From: Methanosarcina sp.
GTDB lineage: Archaea > Halobacteriota > Methanosarcinia > Methanosarcinales > Methanosarcinaceae
Direction: 5' to 3'
Assembly: GCF_028693135.1 (NCBI RefSeq)
Contig: NZ_JAQUVZ010000011.1
Location: 21,296-85,295 of the forward strand
DNA: 64,000 nucleotides
Shown here: in pieces, positions 14,790 through 36,149 of the stretch
Layout of the letters: every line of letters begins with the position of its first letter
How positions within the stretch are numbered: position 1 is the stretch's first letter
Program-made: the position numbers and the translations under genes
The notes under the pieces: model-generated
The model's input: the letters and a program-made list of their open reading frames with translations, nothing else
Databases searched by the model: none
What the model was told of the DNA's origin: nothing

Positions 14790-14972
14790 TCAATACCTTT
14801 TGACGTTGCAGAGTGTTTTTTCGAGATGCCGCCTGTGAACTGTACATTTGGGTTCAGGCAGTACACCAAGAAAGATGAAAACCCACCCTAAAGGGAAGAG
14901 AAGGATCATCGCTCCAAGCGCCCTCAAAAAGGTAATCAGACATGAAAGCAGGTCTCTGTATATATCTCGCAT
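14790..14972 (-). CDS. Small membrane protein, 60 residues, function unknown
   Basis: On the minus strand ATG 14970-14972 follows gagaggtgat with about 6-8 nt spacing, a strong Shine-Dalgarno sequence, so the upstream in-frame TTG at 14990 is not needed. The product begins MRDIYRDLLSCL and has one long hydrophobic stretch (FLRALGAMILLFPLGWVFIFLGV), then a basic tail with CTVHRRHLEK. One membrane span, or a hairpin of two short ones, is likely. No family is recognised. It is convergent with hef and stands alone. Confidence 0.6.
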   Translation of the reverse strand: MRDIYRDLLSCLITFLRALGAMILLFPLGWVFIFLGVLPEPKCTVHRRHLEKTLCNVKRY

Positions 14973-15864
14973 GCTTTCATCACCTCTCAATATACATTCA
15001 TATGGTCATAAATATAAACACTCCTAAAAGAAATTTACGATAAATCATGATAGATCTGGTAAGTTTCAAAATGCCAATTTTCAAAAAAAGGGAGGAATCC
15101 TTAATGATAAATAATTATAGAAAAAACCCCATTCCAGATAACCTTGAGGAAACTAAAGAAGTTATAAATAAAAGCAGCATCATATGGCGAAAATTTCCAC
15201 TTTTTTAAAATACACTTACTGTATGATTGAAATCCGAAAAGCGGTTTCCTATAATCAAAAAGTGTAAAACTATAATGAAAAATCAGGAAATATGAGCAAA
15301 ATGACAGTTAATAAATATATAATTAATATATATGAAGACTATAATTAAAATAATAGTATATAAAGGGGGAAGAACCTGGAAAGATGCCACATATAGCAAA
15401 ATCGACATTGTGGGAGACTTTGCCGCAGGTATGGGAAAAAAAGGTTACACCTCAAGACCAAAGTTTCCTGAGAAAAAGCTTCAGTTTTTCAGGGAAATTT
15501 CTGCCAGTCAGGGCACATCAAACTTCGTGAAGACAGAAAAGGAACAGGAAAATCCAGATTCCTCAAGCAGATCTTCATAAGAGGTGCTTTTACCATATTT
15601 TTTCCGAAAGAGCTTTTTTTGCCCTTTTTTCCCTATAAAAGCTTCATTTTCTATAACTCAGTTTTATTGTGGTCTTTTCTTCCGATTGGTATTTTATATG
15701 CAATCGTTTCTTCCTGATTTCCTCTTTCCTTTGATCTTTTTCAACAGGTCTTTAATCCTGCATATTCTTAGCAATATTTCTACCTATTGTTAATTTTAAT
15801 TTATCTTACTTCTGGCTCACCCATCCCGGAATCTAACGATTTCAGCTCTGCCTGCAATTAGATT
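14973..15864. other. AT-rich gap with one doubtful small gene
   Basis: The gap is AT-rich and pyrimidine-rich towards its right end. Apart from the doubtful small frames around 15332-15580, I see no gene, RNA or clear repeat. The frame at 15584-15793 is a low-complexity Phe/Leu/Ser shadow. Confidence 0.4.
15332..15580 (+). CDS. Doubtful small ORF (two overlapping frames)
   Basis: Two frames compete here. The longer (82 residues, ATG 15332) starts inside an AT-rich TATA-like stretch with no ribosome-binding site. A shorter one (48 residues, ATG 15384 to TGA 15530, beginning MPHIAKSTLWETLPQVW) lies after ggggga at 15365 and has the more protein-like composition. They could be halves of one frameshifted gene. 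Neither is recognised and either may be spurious. Confidence 0.25.
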   Translation: MKTIIKIIVYKGGRTWKDATYSKIDIVGDFAAGMGKKGYTSRPKFPEKKLQFFREISASQGTSNFVKTEKEQENPDSSSRSS

Positions 15865-29167: not shown

Positions 29168-31867
29168 ATGGAAATAGAATCGAAATTTTTGGTCCCGGAA
29201 GAGACAGATTTTAAAGCGCTTGAAAATCTCTCCAGGCTTGCATCTTATACTATTTCTGAAGCTCGGATCCAGATAATTGAGGACACTTTTCTTGATACAG
29301 AAAATAAAGACATTATGGCTGCCGGGTATTACTTGAGAATAAGAAAAGCCGCAGGTGAAAAAGGGAAATGGGTGACAATCAAAAGCCTGGGAGGTTTTGA
29401 AGGCGGGACCCACAGGAGAGAAGAATATGTCAGTTTCTTGCCTGAAAGGCTTTCTGTGCTTGAATGTCCCAACCTCAAGATCAGAAATATGATTTTTGAG
29501 TTTACCTCAGGGCTTGACCTGTATCCACTTATTAATCTCAAACAGAAAAGGCTAATTCGCAAATTAAATCTTGAAGAAAAGCAGGTAGCTGACCTCTATC
29601 TGGACAGGGTAAATCTCAAAAGCGAAAGCAGGAAAAAACTCTACAATGAGTTTGAGGTTGAACTTAAAAGCGGAGGGACTGTAAAAGACCTCGAGACTAT
29701 CCGGGATTTCCTCCTCAATAATTACAGTCTTGTAGAGAGCCCTTTTTCCAAGTTTGAAAGAGCATGTATTTTCAGAGAAAATCTTCCGGAAAAAACCTTC
29801 CTGGACCTGAAGGAAAGAGCTGTTTGCACACAGCTTGCAGATCACAAAAACATATACGGAAAGCAAGCCCAGATTCTTCTTTTAATTGACAGGGGAAGTA
29901 ATCCTGCAGAACTAAGCCTTCTACTTAAAGTTCCGGAACCTGAGATCGAAGCTCTGCTCTCGAGGTTTGAAAAAGAAAGGCTTTCGGTCTTTCCATTTAC
30001 AGGAACTAAAGAAAAAACCCCTGGAAAAAGCCTGGCATTTCATTTCCAGTCCGGAAGAGGGGAACCCCATAAAGGCTGGACTGAGATGGGCATCGAAGAA
30101 TGGACCCCTGAAGCCCTTATGGAACTGTATGGAGTTAACAGAGAAAGAGCAGAAAATATCAGGGCAGGAACCCTCGCCCTCTTTGATGGGCTTTCTGCTT
30201 ATCACGGGCTCGGAAAGGAGGAAAAGGAACTTCTCGGCCTTGCAGCCCTCATGCAAAATATCGGAAGTCCGGCTTCCGGGGAAAAAGAAACACTGATTAG
30301 CAGAGAAATTCTCCTTACCCATCCAGTTAAAGGACTGAAACTTAATGAACTGCGAATGCTTGCCCTTATAATAGAACTTCAGGACCCCGAAATAAATGAA
30401 AAAAACCTTTCATTAATCCTTGAAGAAGATAATACAGGTCTTTCTCCAGCTTTTCAGAATAAAGCCCTCATTCTTACAGCTTATCTCCGGATTGCAAACC
30501 TTTCCGACAAAGGAGCTCAGGGGTTTCTGCCCTGCCGGTTCAGGCAACTTGATGGAGCCGTCGAAATAGAACTTATGGGACCTGATGCAGAAAAAACTGC
30601 AAAAAAGGCAGAAAAAAGAAGCGAACTCTGGGAATATCTCTTCAGCACCGAACTACGGTTTACGCAGGTCAGGAAACCTCTTGAATCCGGAGACTCGGAA
30701 AGAACCTCCGAAAAAACACAAAGAGACGAAGGAAAAGGAAAAAGAGAAGAAGCTGAAGAAAAAGGAAAAAGAAAAGGAGAAGAAGCTGAAGGAAAAGGAG
30801 GGGGAAAACCCCGGGAGAAAGTTGAAGACAAAACTGAAAAAAGAATTGAGAAGAAAAAAAGAAAAGAAACTCAGAAATTCACGGTCATCCCGGAAGATTC
30901 CATGGCCTTTGTTGCGCACAGGATCTTTACATACCAGTTCTCCCAGATGCTCGCCCATGAAAAGGGAACCCGAAAAGGAGAAGACATCGAAGAGTTGCAT
31001 GACATGCGCGTTGCGGTCCGCAGGATGAGGGCGTCAACACTAGTCTTTGATGAATACCTTGAATCCGAAAAACTGGAGCCCCACCTTAAAGGGCTAAGGA
31101 GAACTCTTGGTGCCCTGGGAAGAGTCAGGGATCTGGACGTTTTCCGAGAAAAAGCAGAAACTTACCTGAAAACCCTGCCTTCCGGGCGTGAACATGACCT
31201 TGACCCTCTTTTAATTACACTTGCAGAGGAGAGAGAAAAAGCCAGGAAAAATATGCTTGATTACCTTGACAGTGAAAAGTACAGCCATTTTAAGAAAGAC
31301 TTTTCGGATTTTCTGGATTTCCCGGAAACCTGGGCTCTCCCCACAACTACAGAGAAACATGACTCTCTACCGCACAGGGTAAAAGATGTGCTTCCTTCGA
31401 TCCTCTATGCCCGTTTAGCCGACATAAGTGCCTACTCCGAATGGGTGGAAGGGCCCTATGTTTCGGTTGAGAGGCTGCACAGGCTCAGGATTGCGGCCAA
31501 GGGGCTGCGTTATACTTTAGAGTTCTTTGAGGATGTGCTCGGAAAAGAAGTTGAGACCTTAATCAAAGATTTCAAAGTTTTGCAGGACCACCTTGGAGAC
31601 CTGCATGATGCAGCCGTTGCAACCAAAATGCTGGGATATTACCTTAATACAGGGACATGGAACCTTTCAGCAAGTGAAAAAGCATCGAGTGAAACGCATA
31701 TTTCCGAAAGCTGTGGCGGAGTGGAAGCTTACCTTGCGTACAGGGAAGAAGAACTCTTAACCCTGCTCAACACTTTTCCGGATACCTGGAAAAAAGTCCG
31801 GACCGAAGAATTTAGAAAGAGAATTGAAAATGCAGTCAGAAGCCTCAGTCAACTACCGCTGAGCTAA
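29168..31867 (+). CDS. CYTH / Ppx-like / CHAD fusion protein (polyphosphate-binding)
   Basis: This 899-residue protein has three parts. Residues 1-200 are a CYTH domain opening MEIESKFLV, with the ExExK signature, a triphosphate-binding tunnel fold. Residues about 305-502 resemble the C-terminal HD domain of exopolyphosphatase (RAENIRAGTLALFDGL ... LILTAYLRIANLSD), but LHDIG has become LMQNIG. A Lys/Glu-rich linker spans about 508-575. The rest is a CHAD domain (EELHDMRVAVRRMRAS, HRLRIAAKGLRYTLEFFE), whose conserved histidines and basic residues bind polyphosphate. It converges on ppx and ppk, so a polyphosphate role is very likely. ATG 29168 follows ggggag. The last six codons and stop come from a dispersed hairpin element at 31848. 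Confidence 0.9.
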   Translation: MEIESKFLVPEETDFKALENLSRLASYTISEARIQIIEDTFLDTENKDIMAAGYYLRIRKAAGEKGKWVTIKSLGGFEGGTHRREEYVSFLPERLSVLECPNLKIRNMIFEFTSGLDLYPLINLKQKRLIRKLNLEEKQVADLYLDRVNLKSESRKKLYNEFEVELKSGGTVKDLETIRDFLLNNYSLVESPFSKFERACIFRENLPEKTFLDLKERAVCTQLADHKNIYGKQAQILLLIDRGSNPAELSLLLKVPEPEIEALLSRFEKERLSVFPFTGTKEKTPGKSLAFHFQSGRGEPHKGWTEMGIEEWTPEALMELYGVNRERAENIRAGTLALFDGLSAYHGLGKEEKELLGLAALMQNIGSPASGEKETLISREILLTHPVKGLKLNELRMLALIIELQDPEINEKNLSLILEEDNTGLSPAFQNKALILTAYLRIANLSDKGAQGFLPCRFRQLDGAVEIELMGPDAEKTAKKAEKRSELWEYLFSTELRFTQVRKPLESGDSERTSEKTQRDEGKGKREEAEEKGKRKGEEAEGKGGGKPREKVEDKTEKRIEKKKRKETQKFTVIPEDSMAFVAHRIFTYQFSQMLAHEKGTRKGEDIEELHDMRVAVRRMRASTLVFDEYLESEKLEPHLKGLRRTLGALGRVRDLDVFREKAETYLKTLPSGREHDLDPLLITLAEEREKARKNMLDYLDSEKYSHFKKDFSDFLDFPETWALPTTTEKHDSLPHRVKDVLPSILYARLADISAYSEWVEGPYVSVERLHRLRIAAKGLRYTLEFFEDVLGKEVETLIKDFKVLQDHLGDLHDAAVATKMLGYYLNTGTWNLSASEKASSETHISESCGGVEAYLAYREEELLTLLNTFPDTWKKVRTEEFRKRIENAVRSLSQLPLS

Positions 31868-31891
31868 AGACTCAGGGTTTTCCTGCTGAGG
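31848..31891 (+). repeat. Dispersed palindromic element (copy B) overlapping the CHAD gene end
   Basis: gtcaactaccgctgagctaaagactcagggttttcctgctgagg has the same order as copy A with partly decayed arms. The frame of the CYTH/CHAD gene reads through it as Q-L-P-L-S and stops at taa 31865-31867. Confidence 0.65.
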
Positions 31892-31951
31892 ATTTATAAA
31901 AGCCTCTGACGGATTTTCAGTTTATTTTTTATTTTTGAAAACCAATTTAAG

Positions 31952-32017
31952 TTTTGAAGAGGATTTTTTTTGAAGAAGTTTCAATTTTTGAAGAGGATTT
32001 TTTTTGAAGAAGCTTCA
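31952..32017. repeat. Direct repeat in the convergent gap before ppx
   Basis: Two copies of ttttgaagaggattttttttg plus aagaag(t/c)ttca lie at about 31952-31983 and 31986-32017. The second reaches the 3' end of the ppx gene. Confidence 0.6.
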
Positions 32018-33646
32018 TCCCCGAGGGACTTCCTCGACCTCAACGCTGCCCTCAAAAATTAAAGGGGCGCCCTCGGCCTGTTTTATAAGAACTTTGGACT
32101 GAAGGTTATACCCGAACATCTTTTTGAAATACTTCTTCTGTTTCTCGACCTCCCAGATTTCAAGCTGGCACTCCCGCTGGGCATGCATCTCAAGCACAAG
32201 GCCATCGGTGGAGGCAATATAAAAACGGACATGGGAGATGATTCCTGTATGGGAACGGTCAAGCCCTTCGGCAATACGGAGCAGGGCACTGAGCAACCTC
32301 ACGCTTTTTACGGCTTCTTTGCTGAGCCCTGCAAGATTGGGATGCTTCTTTTTAGGGGTGTTTTTCCTGTGGAAATACGCAAGGTTTGAAATTATTTCGA
32401 TTTCTTCAGGCTGGAAACCCGGGAGGCTACTTTCTCTTATGAGGTGATAGGCATGTGCCTGATGGGTATCGTATGAGAGAAATGTCCCTATGTCGTGCAG
32501 GGTTGCGCCGTATTCAAGAAGCTCTCTCTCACTCTCCTGAAATTCATAGACCCCAAGCGCCTGGATACTGTCAAAGAGTTCAAGAGCAAGCCTGGTGACG
32601 ATATGGGCATGTTCTTCATCAAAGTTACAGGCAAGGCCAAGCTGCATGATGCTGCGTTTCCTTACCGACATCTGCGTGACCATGTAAGAGAATTCGCTCT
32701 TTGAGATATAGTCCACGAGTAGCCCTTCCCTGAGCCCACGCTTGCTGATCGTAATCTCTGAAAGTTCGAGTTCCTCCATAAGGGTCTCGATGATTGCAGC
32801 GCCTGCAAGGATGATGTCTGCCCTCTGGGTATTTATTCCCGGAAATTTGCGCCTCTCCTCAAGCGTCAGGGCGCACATTGCCCTGACAATTTTCTTCAGG
32901 TCTTCGTACTCCAGCTTCTCGAAACTTTCATGGGCTGTTTTATGCAGGTAAACAAAAGCGATTTTTGCAAGATTTTCGACAGTTCCCGAGCTGCCAATGG
33001 CGCAGCTTGCCCTGTACCTGGAAAGTTCTTTTGTTATATCCGTGGTCTTGCGCCGTATGTAGGCTTTGATCTGCTCATACCGCTCCTCGGAAACCGGACC
33101 TGTTTCATCCGGAAGGAACACGTTTGTCAGGCGGATTGACCCCAGGTTAAGGGAATGAAGGAAGTAACACTTGCTCTGGTCCCCTATCGACACTTCAGTA
33201 CTCCCACCCCCGATATCAATAAAAAGGGCTTTTGAATAACCGAGGCGGAGCCCACTTGAGACCCCCAGATAGATCAGGCGGGCTTCTTCTGACCCTGAAA
33301 TCGTGCAGACCTCAAGGTTTGCCTCTTTTTTAATCATTTCAAGAAACTGGACCCTATTGCTCGCATCCCGGGTTGCAGAGGTTGCCACAGCTATGATCTC
33401 TTCTGCCCGGTAAGCCCTTGCAAGTTCCATGAACTTTTTACAGACAACGGTTGCCCTCTCCATTGCTTTTGGCTGCAAGATCCTGTCTATAAACTCCTTA
33501 TCTCCAAGCCGCACCGTTTCCTTCTGCTTGGTCAGGGGCTGGTAAGATCCATTGGAATTGATCCGGACCAGAAGAAGCCGGACCGAGTTAGTCCCTATAT
33601 CAATAAACGCAACAACCCTGCCTTCGGAAATTTTCTCGGGTTCCAT
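32015..33646 (-). CDS. ppx: Exopolyphosphatase (Ppx/GppA family)
   Basis: The 543-residue protein removes terminal phosphate from polyphosphate, or from pppGpp in GppA-type members. The actin-like N-terminal half has AFIDIGTNSVRLLL near residue 14 and FIDIGGGSTEVSI near residue 145, both phosphate-binding loops. The C-terminal half carries an HD-type domain with LHDIGTFLSYDTHQAH near residue 385. That is the domain matched by the middle of the neighbouring CYTH/CHAD protein. ATG 33646 follows aggtggt with about 6 nt spacing. It is 316 bp downstream of ppk on the same strand and has a TATA-like acatatatag at about 33782-33791, so it may have its own promoter. Confidence 0.95.
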   Translation of the reverse strand: MEPEKISEGRVVAFIDIGTNSVRLLLVRINSNGSYQPLTKQKETVRLGDKEFIDRILQPKAMERATVVCKKFMELARAYRAEEIIAVATSATRDASNRVQFLEMIKKEANLEVCTISGSEEARLIYLGVSSGLRLGYSKALFIDIGGGSTEVSIGDQSKCYFLHSLNLGSIRLTNVFLPDETGPVSEERYEQIKAYIRRKTTDITKELSRYRASCAIGSSGTVENLAKIAFVYLHKTAHESFEKLEYEDLKKIVRAMCALTLEERRKFPGINTQRADIILAGAAIIETLMEELELSEITISKRGLREGLLVDYISKSEFSYMVTQMSVRKRSIMQLGLACNFDEEHAHIVTRLALELFDSIQALGVYEFQESERELLEYGATLHDIGTFLSYDTHQAHAYHLIRESSLPGFQPEEIEIISNLAYFHRKNTPKKKHPNLAGLSKEAVKSVRLLSALLRIAEGLDRSHTGIISHVRFYIASTDGLVLEMHAQRECQLEIWEVEKQKKYFKKMFGYNLQSKVLIKQAEGAPLIFEGSVEVEEVPRG

Positions 33647-33962
33647 TCATGACCACCTGAAAGCCCTGCATTTTGTTTTTCTAGAAGGATTAAAAGAGCT
33701 CCATAAATTTCACAATGTCTGTTAACATTTTTATTCAATATGAGATTTATTTTTCGGATAGTATTTTCCTGAGTTCTATCTTTCTATATATGTGAAATTG
33801 TAAGTTCAAAAACCCTGCCCATATTAAACTCCAGAGAGTAGCATAAAAACTTCAACTAAAACTTCAAGTGGGAAAGGAAAACACAGGAACTAAAGGAAAA
33901 GAAGGAAAAATGGAAAGGAAGGAGAAGAGAGAAAACAAAAAAAAGGAGAATAAAAATTTTTA
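33647..33962. other. Gap between ppk and ppx
   Basis: Holds a TATA-like element for ppx on the minus strand (about 33782-33791) and a purine-rich tract (33865-33955) directly after ppk. No gene seen. Confidence 0.45.
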
Positions 33963-36149
33963 TCAGCCATTTTCCGTTTTAAGCTCCCAGCTGTCTCTGT
34001 TCTCAAGCATCCAGAGCTGAGAATCCAGTTCTTCTTCGTCGGGCTGCGGGTAGATCCTTTCAGTCCTGCCGTTAGGGAGGAGAAGGCGAGCTTTTATGTT
34101 ATCCTTCAGGTGGGTACCGAGGATGACATCGCGCACGATGGGAATGTAATCTAAAGATACGGGAAAGAGGACTTCGACCCGGTTGTCAAGGTTGCGGGGC
34201 ATAAGGTCGGCACTGCCCATAAAAATCTCTTCTTTTCCGCCATTCCTGAAGTAGTATACTCTTGAATGTTCAAGAAAACGCCCGACTATAGAAGTGACCC
34301 TGATATTTTCGCTCAAACCGTAGATTCCGGGCCTGAGGCAACAGATGCCCCTGACAATGAGGTCTACTTTTACTCCAACCAGTGAAGCTCTGTAAAGTTC
34401 CCGGATGCACTGGTAGTCCACCAGGGAATTCATCTTGAAGAGCAGGTGACCGTTCCCAAATTTCTCGTGCAGGTCAATCTCGCGCCTGATGCGCTCAAGG
34501 ATCTGATGCCTCATATTCTGCGGGGCTACGAGGAGCTTGATATAATGGTCCTTCCTTGAATAACCTGTAAGGGCATTGAAAAGATCAGAGATGTCTTTAC
34601 CTATGAAAGGGTCACCTGTGAGGTAGCCGAAGTCGGTATAGAGCTTTCCTGTAACAGCGTTGTAGTTTCCAGTCCCCATATGCACATAATACCTGATACC
34701 TTCTTTTTCAGCCCTTACAATAAGGCACATCTTGGCATGGGTTTTGCGCCCGGGAAAGCCGTAGGCTACGTGAACACCCTTGCACTCGAGTTCCTTTGCC
34801 CAGCCAATGTTGTTCTCTTCGTCAAAGCGGGCTTTAAGTTCGACAAGGACTGCAACCTGCTTGTTCCGATCCGCAGCTTTCATAAGAGCCTGGATAATCC
34901 TGGAGTTGTCATCTACCCTGTATAATGTCATTTTAATTGCCAGGACATCCGGGTCATCGGCGGCTTCTTCCACCAGATCGGTTATCGATTCGAAACTGTC
35001 GTAAGGGTGATAGAGAAAGATATCCTTCTTTTTCAGGGCTGAAAAAATGTTTTCCTTATCGGCCATAAGGGAATGTTTTCTCTGCTCAAAAGGTTCATAT
35101 TTAAGCTCAGGACGGTTAATTTGTGTAAGCTTCATAAGGCTTGAGAGGCCCAGAGGCGCCGCTGCCCTGAACATCAGAGGAGGGGTAAGCTCCAGGTTTT
35201 TAAGGAGAATATCAGAAACCCTTTCAGGCATAGTATAGTCAGTTTCAAGCCGGACAGCAGGCCCGAAGTAGTTTCTCCCCACCCTCTGCTTAACAGCAGT
35301 CAGAAGGTCCTTGTCTCCATCTTCATCAAAGCCAAGGTCAGCGTCTCGTGTGATCCTGAAAGGATAAGCTCCAAGAATGCGCTGTCCGGGGAACAGCAGA
35401 TCGAGGTTTGCAGCAATCAGCTGTTCAAGCCACACAAAACGCCCTGATTTTAATTCTTCAAAACTGGAAGTTGTTTTTTCCTGGCCTTCTTCTGGAACAA
35501 CAATCAGCCTTGTGAACATAGGAGGGATCTTGACCCTTGCAAAACGTTCCCCGTAGTCCGGGTCATCAATAAGTACGGCAAGGTTAATACTGAGATTTGA
35601 AATATGGGGGAAAGGATGCCCTGAGTCAAAACCAAGGGGAGTAAGTAGCGGAAAAATATTTCTTTCGAAGTAGTCCCTGAGTTTTTCTCTGTCTTCTCCG
35701 GAAAGTTCAAAGTAGTTAAGGACTTTAATTCCCTTTTCCCTTAGAGCCGGTTCGAGCACTTCGTTCCAGCAGCTGTCTTTTAGAGGAAGCTGTATTAGAA
35801 GTTCTTCCCGGATGACCTGCAACTGCTCCTGAGCCAGTTCATCTGTGCAGTCTTCCTTTGCTCCTTCAGCAATACGTTTCTTGATCCCGGAGACCCTGAC
35901 CATAAAAAACTCATCAAGATTGCTCCCGAAAATGGAAAGAAACTTGACTCTCTCAAGCAGAGGATTACGTTCATCCAGAGCTTCTTCGAGTACCCGGTCA
36001 TTGAACTGGAGCCAGCTATATTCCCGGTCCACATAAAGGCATTGGTCACTCAGGTCAGGCATGCCTGATACTTCAACCCGGACTCCGTCAACACTATCCG
36101 TAACCAATCTATCAAAATCTGCACACTGAATTGGGAAGTTACGCTCCAT
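33963..36149 (-). CDS. ppk: Polyphosphate kinase Ppk1
   Basis: Ppk1 makes polyphosphate from the gamma-phosphate of ATP and can run backwards. The N domain starts DREYSWLQFNDRVLEEA and SNLDEFFMVRVSG follows. The C-terminal catalytic domains show the phospholipase-D-like histidine regions: GRKTHAKMCLIVR (the phosphorylated His) and later EHSRVYYFRNGGKEEIFMGSADLM. NLDNRVEVLFPV is also typical. From ATG 36149 the protein has 728 residues. A GTG three codons upstream is an alternative and neither has a clear ribosome-binding site. The gene leads the ppk-ppx unit. The gap 36150-36830 upstream is shared with nothing else on this strand except the MutS-like gene beyond. Confidence 0.96.
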   Translation of the reverse strand: MERNFPIQCADFDRLVTDSVDGVRVEVSGMPDLSDQCLYVDREYSWLQFNDRVLEEALDERNPLLERVKFLSIFGSNLDEFFMVRVSGIKKRIAEGAKEDCTDELAQEQLQVIREELLIQLPLKDSCWNEVLEPALREKGIKVLNYFELSGEDREKLRDYFERNIFPLLTPLGFDSGHPFPHISNLSINLAVLIDDPDYGERFARVKIPPMFTRLIVVPEEGQEKTTSSFEELKSGRFVWLEQLIAANLDLLFPGQRILGAYPFRITRDADLGFDEDGDKDLLTAVKQRVGRNYFGPAVRLETDYTMPERVSDILLKNLELTPPLMFRAAAPLGLSSLMKLTQINRPELKYEPFEQRKHSLMADKENIFSALKKKDIFLYHPYDSFESITDLVEEAADDPDVLAIKMTLYRVDDNSRIIQALMKAADRNKQVAVLVELKARFDEENNIGWAKELECKGVHVAYGFPGRKTHAKMCLIVRAEKEGIRYYVHMGTGNYNAVTGKLYTDFGYLTGDPFIGKDISDLFNALTGYSRKDHYIKLLVAPQNMRHQILERIRREIDLHEKFGNGHLLFKMNSLVDYQCIRELYRASLVGVKVDLIVRGICCLRPGIYGLSENIRVTSIVGRFLEHSRVYYFRNGGKEEIFMGSADLMPRNLDNRVEVLFPVSLDYIPIVRDVILGTHLKDNIKARLLLPNGRTERIYPQPDEEELDSQLWMLENRDSWELKTENG

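Follow-up and report, generated by a model that had tools for sequence, protein, structure and literature searches.

Polyphosphate serves as a phosphate store of the cell, and its metabolism in archaea has been little studied. In the Methanosarcina sp. DNA analyzed here (a stretch of 64,000 nucleotides, called the window below), the genes for polyphosphate kinase and exopolyphosphatase have as their neighbour a gene whose product joins a CYTH domain, a middle region resembling a part of Ppx, and a CHAD domain. What may such a fusion protein do at this locus, where does its middle domain come from, and can that domain still act as an enzyme?

Fusions of CYTH with an HD hydrolase or with CHAD were listed by Iyer & Aravind 2002, as cited in PMC8233210. 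A study of M. mazei reported that ppk1 is induced once phosphate is restored, with CHAD and CYTH unmentioned in its text (PMC6864096). In the literature searched, no paper brought CYTH and HD domains together with Methanosarcina, and none treated an HD domain as a pseudoenzyme in connection with exopolyphosphatase. CYTH-CHAD and CYTH-HD are known partnerships. The metal-site loss, the domain origin and the HTH-like insert presented below are, as far as these searches reached, undescribed.

Layout of the polyphosphate locus

When coordinates and Pfam matches were compared, the gene and domain content of positions 29168-36149 was as the earlier note had described it (Table 1). The orientation, absent from that note, is convergent: the fusion gene lies tail to tail with the ppx-ppk1 pair and is not co-directional with it. 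The source genome encodes one CHAD protein and two CYTH domains (the fusion and a standalone protein of 177 aa). Besides Ppx and the fusion, a standalone protein encoded on contig C18 matches Ppx domain III below an E-value of 1e-3, which makes three such matches in this genome.

Table 1 Features of the polyphosphate locus, with positions in the window and residues of the encoded protein
Feature	Position	Strand	Details
CYTH / Ppx-domain-III-like / CHAD fusion gene	29168-31867	+	899 aa from ATG
CYTH (triphosphate tunnel) domain, residues 1-205	29168..29782	+	Pfam PF01928 at residues 2-199, 3.8e-24
CYTH motif residues			ExExK (E2, E4, K6), YxRxR (Y55, R57, R59), K72, R84, R128, E161/E163/E165, K195
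Helix-turn-helix-like module, residues 206-282	29783..30013	+	weak matches, model, conservation
Predicted pseudo-HD domain, residues 301-500	30068..30667	+	homologous to Ppx/GppA domain III; metal ligands lost
K/E-rich linker, residues 501-570	30668..30877	+	composition; 31-94 aa in orthologues; median dN/dS 0.50
CHAD domain and C-terminal extension, residues 571-899	30878..31864	+	Pfam PF05235 at residues 586-822, 5e-56
ppx, exopolyphosphatase	32015-33646	-	543 aa; Ppx-GppA 2.2e-66, domain III 4.8e-28 (Pfam)
Ppx domain III, Ppx residues 328-502	32141..32665	-	HD residues kept
ppk1, polyphosphate kinase 1	33963-36149	-	728 aa; four PP_kinase Pfam domains; TIGR03705 6.5e-241

CYTH and CHAD domains

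The PF01928 match of the fusion is over the cut-off, and all 28 of the 28 orthologues also match this family. When the 29 sequences were aligned, E2, E4, K6, R57, R59, K72, R84, R128, E163 and K195 were invariant, and the YxRxR motif and the ExE strand as wholes were invariant or close to it. The E. coli protein YgiF (5a60) aligned end to end with the CYTH profile at 4.5e-9, with the catalytic motifs in register. Since every catalytic motif is kept and the domain aligns with YgiF, the CYTH domain is probably an enzyme and more than an end-binder. The earlier note had suggested that it may bind the chain end; a role as a mere binder is not supported, given the intact ExExK, YxRxR and ExE motifs and the YgiF alignment.

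In the case of CHAD, the solved domain 6qv7 aligned with the fusion at 3.4e-23 and both His-Arg half-motifs are kept. The putative polyphosphate-binding basic residues H611, R614, H771, R774, K778 and R781 are invariant among the orthologues and align with the solved domain. CHAD domains have been reported to bind polyphosphate specifically, and the CHAD domain of YgiF boosts the activity of YgiF (PMC6537752). From the motifs and the homologues, we infer that CHAD of the fusion binds polyphosphate and that CYTH is catalytic.

Because of the CYTH and CHAD alignments and this effect of CHAD in YgiF, we consider YgiF (an inorganic triphosphatase; 5a60/5a61), which is also the best relative with a solved structure, the nearest known system. 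Both proteins have an N-terminal CYTH domain with aligned catalytic motifs and a C-terminal CHAD domain. Unlike in YgiF, these domains of the fusion are separated by an insertion of about 370 residues (the HTH-like module, the pseudo-HD domain and the K/E-rich linker).

Homology of the middle domain to Ppx domain III

In the single sequence, the Pfam family Ppx-GppA_III matched residues 312-421 of the fusion at 2.9e-4, below the curated cut-off, and BLASTP aligned residues 305-454 with the neighbouring Ppx (23 % identity, E-value 7e-4). PF21447 was matched by 26 of the 28 orthologues (best 7e-9), and a copy from genus g2 (L091) passes its curated cut-off. The search of a middle-region profile against Ppx, which the earlier note had proposed, was made with the orthologues and matched the solved C-terminal domain of Yersinia Ppx at 3.7e-7, together with other exopolyphosphatase structures. 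The middle domain also matched the local Ppx domain III in hhalign (98 %).

AlphaFold was run on residues 206-506 and on the full protein with few input sequences, and the mean pLDDT was 49.8 and 37.2, respectively. As the confidence of these models is low, they were not used for geometry. When the poor model was searched with Foldseek, the first 13 matches were all Ppx/GppA, with E-values above 0.001 and low TM-scores.

The matches of the orthologues, the profile and hhalign place the homology to Ppx domain III beyond chance, and the alignment of the middle domain with the HD domain of Ppx proposed in the earlier note stands. So does the change of LHDIG in Ppx to LMQNIG in the fusion, as the same residues are paired in the BLASTP alignment. 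PF02541, which represents the N-terminal phosphatase domains of Ppx, had no Pfam match in the fusion, which is not a whole Ppx enzyme. Compared with Ppx/GppA domain III (PF21447; 3rf0, 1u6z, 8jgx), to which it is linked by the profile matches and the Foldseek pattern, the middle domain is detached from the phosphatase domains, lacks the metal ligands and lies on a separate branch.

Origin of the middle domain

When a tree of 67 domains was drawn, all fusion copies formed one clade (99/99), and this clade was grouped with the standalone HD and CYTH-HD families (100/99), apart from Ppx domain III. Comparison by hhalign gave an E-value of 2.6e-32 against the active HD proteins and 3.4e-14 against Ppx domain III. 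Within this archaeal family, the nearest kin of the dead domain are thus active HD proteins, either standalone or fused as CYTH-HD. Kinship specifically with the neighbouring Ppx, with which the earlier note had aligned the domain, is not supported.

A copy of the neighbouring Ppx was considered as the source of the domain and was rejected, with long branches as a caveat, when the fusion copies were held together with the local Ppx domain III (AU test, p 1.4e-5). Holding them with all Ppx domain III gave p 0.008. Since the branches leading to the fusion clade are long, the local Ppx is excluded with more certainty than the point at which the clade joins the tree can be placed.

The closest relatives are of two kinds. 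A standalone protein of about 215-245 aa with intact HD ligands is present in nearly every Methanosarcina, and in genera g5 and g21 a CYTH domain is fused to a ligand-intact HD domain (about 420-450 aa), encoded near CHAD, ppk1 and ppx. In contrast to the fusion, both kinds keep the HD ligands and have neither CHAD nor the HTH-like module.

In the source genome the standalone protein (214 aa from ATG) is encoded outside the window at G000:C18:113911-114504 (L032:9364-10008), and the dead domain probably has its active sibling in this protein. Its gene adjoins a histidine-phosphatase/phosphoglycerate-mutase-like gene. Near-identical duplicates of a gene for a 213-aa membrane protein (L032:11329-11970 and 14913-15554) flank aminotransferase-like and nucleotidyltransferase-like genes in the same region.

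Loss of the metal site and constraint

When 36 distinct fusion copies were aligned to the active relatives, none of the 36 retained the first His or the third ligand, whereas 7 retained the HD-pair His and 2 the fourth His. No such loss was seen in the standalone, CYTH-fused, metallophosphoesterase-fused or Ppx copies, all of which have the four ligands. The more distant fusions of genera g22 and g146 are degenerate to the same extent; in two of them a lone His stands at the first position, with no other His ligand. With the H...HD...D ligands lost, the middle domain is predicted not to be an active HD phosphohydrolase, and the inactivity claimed in the earlier note extends across the 36 copies.

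The median pairwise dN/dS was lowest in CYTH (0.14), CHAD (0.15) and the HTH segment (0.16), higher in the pseudo-HD domain (0.28) and highest in the linker (0.50). The invariant positions of the pseudo-HD domain include D340, H346, E380 and W488. By these measures the domain is under constraint despite its dead site. As the metal residues are gone and the domain is nevertheless kept across several genera, the comparison suggests a structural or regulatory job rather than a catalytic one.

The same data bear on whether the pseudo-HD domain is an inert spacer that has decayed slowly since the standalone active HD protein took over, leaving a protein that works as CYTH-CHAD. A dN/dS roughly double the CYTH and CHAD values, freely varying metal positions and truncated copies consisting of CYTH and HTH in three genomes (G002, G016 and G020) would fit such decay. 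However, the value of 0.28 is well below neutrality, the four residues named above are invariant, and the domain has been retained in at least five genera. We consider an inert spacer quite unlikely.

HTH-like module and linker

Residues 206-282, missed in the earlier note, matched almost only HTH families, all weakly and none significantly. In the AlphaFold model, which is poor overall, they form the stretch of best confidence (block pLDDT 73-80) with three helices. The motifs YGKQAxILLxLDRG, AELSLLLKVPExEIEAL and FEKERLSIFPF follow one another in this order, and the module is recognisable as far as the distant genera g22 and g146. We call it HTH-like and not a proven HTH. No HTH-like module was found in the CYTH-HD proteins of g5, and no relative of the HTH-plus-middle region was found in the plasmid collection.

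A conserved HTH-like module (median dN/dS 0.16) followed by a K-rich linker might bind DNA, so that the protein would tether granules, held by CHAD, to the nucleoid. This is highly improbable. With 11 K+R and 12 D+E, the HTH segment is charge-neutral, its third helix is acidic (PEPEIEALLSRFEKE), and neither the sequence nor the length of the linker is conserved.

In the g146 fusion at L089:9472-12543 (-), CYTH and HTH are separated by a long tandem repeat of the TNIDKTDVEK type.

Distribution and co-occurrence

A total of 112 genomes of the family were surveyed, in which a match to the fusion profile represents the fusion or a separate CHAD protein with or without CYTH-HD. Such a match was found in 74 genomes and ppk1 in 74; 73 have both, and each occurs alone in one. 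The co-occurrence of the CHAD carrier with ppk1 is significant (Fisher 2.5e-27) when related genomes are counted as separate; because the 112 genomes are related, they are not 112 independent observations. The association of the fusion with ppk/ppx that the earlier note expected, and named as a check, is borne out by the 73 of the 112 genomes with both CHAD carrier and ppk1.

The CYTH-HTH-pseudoHD-CHAD layout was observed in five genera (g1, which is Methanosarcina, g2, g20, g22 and g146). As read from coordinates, at least 28 of the 37 genomes of g1, g2 and g20 have the fusion in a convergent position near ppx. The full fusion lies away from ppx in at least three genomes (G002, G004 and G010), and the linkage is therefore not essential. 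The Ppx of g22 and g146 is a short form, with frames of about 294-365 aa, that lacks domain III. No active HD domain was found in these two genera, several of whose genomes are incomplete.

These observations bear on the role proposed in the earlier note, a scaffold in which CHAD holds the chain and the pseudo-HD domain recruits Ppx (by a contact between the two domains III) or Ppk to it. The frequent convergent neighbourhood with ppx and the Ppx domain III fold speak for it. Against it, the domain is not descended from the local Ppx, the full fusion occurs apart from ppx in the three genomes named, and the dead domain persists in g22 and g146, where Ppx is without domain III and no active HD domain was found. 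Because of this persistence, domain-III pairing is not the general role, and for the same reason we favour a structural or regulatory role within the protein over such pairing. The pseudo-HD domain might bind Ppk1 or the phosphatase part of Ppx. On the whole, we regard the scaffold as unlikely.

Proposed function

Our favoured explanation, held with moderate confidence, is that the fusion is a YgiF-type, polyphosphate-tethered triphosphatase or short-chain polyphosphatase into which an HTH-like and pseudo-HD module has been inserted. The independent fusion with CHAD beside ppk1 in another family (L071, described below) also speaks for this reading. CHAD would hold the protein on polyphosphate chains or granules, and CYTH would hydrolyse tripolyphosphate or short chain ends and so complete the work of Ppx or limit chain length near Ppk1. 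The HTH-like module and the pseudo-HD domain would act as a structural or allosteric unit between them, which may orient CYTH with respect to CHAD, oligomerise, or sense a ligand and leave it unhydrolysed. What exactly the pseudo-HD domain does is a guess.

The dead domain descends from an active HD lineage that is still seen as CYTH-HD in related genera. In Methanosarcina and the near sister genera, the active HD domain survives as a gene of its own, and the fused copy has lost its metal site and been kept. Some genera thus have an active CYTH-HD and a separate CHAD and others a dead HD domain between CYTH and CHAD, which provides an evolutionary series. The fusion is also a concrete and genetically tractable candidate for a polyphosphate-bound enzyme or regulator in Methanosarcina.

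A more specific and speculative reading, to which we give a low probability, makes the pseudo-HD domain a pseudoenzyme sensor that would bind a ligand rich in phosphate (either a nucleotide or polyphosphate in cyclic or short form) without cleaving it and switch the tethered CYTH triphosphatase. If this were true, a duplicated enzyme domain would have become a polyphosphate gauge in methanogens, with its active sibling remaining a separate gene.

Other architectures

In genera g5, g19 and g21 the cluster is made up of a gene for a separate CHAD protein, ppk1 and a short ppx; g5 and g21 also have CYTH-HD close by. The separate CHAD protein (L033:6254-8167 (-) and its g5/g21 equivalents) has about 600-660 aa; at L033 its N terminus is hydrophobic and probably membrane-spanning, which would make it a possible membrane-anchored CHAD. 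In order-level relatives (L042:7274-7948 and L044:8721-9395), the N-terminal region of the CHAD protein resembles a degenerate CYTH without ExExK, with an hhalign probability of 49 % and an E-value of 1.7e-4.

Truncated copies ending after CYTH-HTH (about 293-311 aa) were observed at L047:9035-9913, G016:C544:17930-18865 and G020:C80:3160-4056. The three genomes with such a copy carry the full fusion elsewhere, and in G002 it is the truncated copy that adjoins ppx. Two further cases were noted at L040:6820-8862 and L038:12127-12768: in G018 (90 % complete) the only copy is broken into three frames with CHAD partly missing, and G014 has a second cluster with a fragmented ppk.

When contigs were scanned with a single protein as the query, not an alignment, four loci were returned. 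The Ppx domain III fold is a mobile module that occurs with CHAD in several architectures and is hidden by annotation as Ppx only. In another family of the phylum, an independent fusion of 810 aa (L071:5789-8218 (-)), encoded directly beside ppk1, combines CHAD, a metallophosphoesterase and a ligand-intact HD domain of the Ppx-III type.
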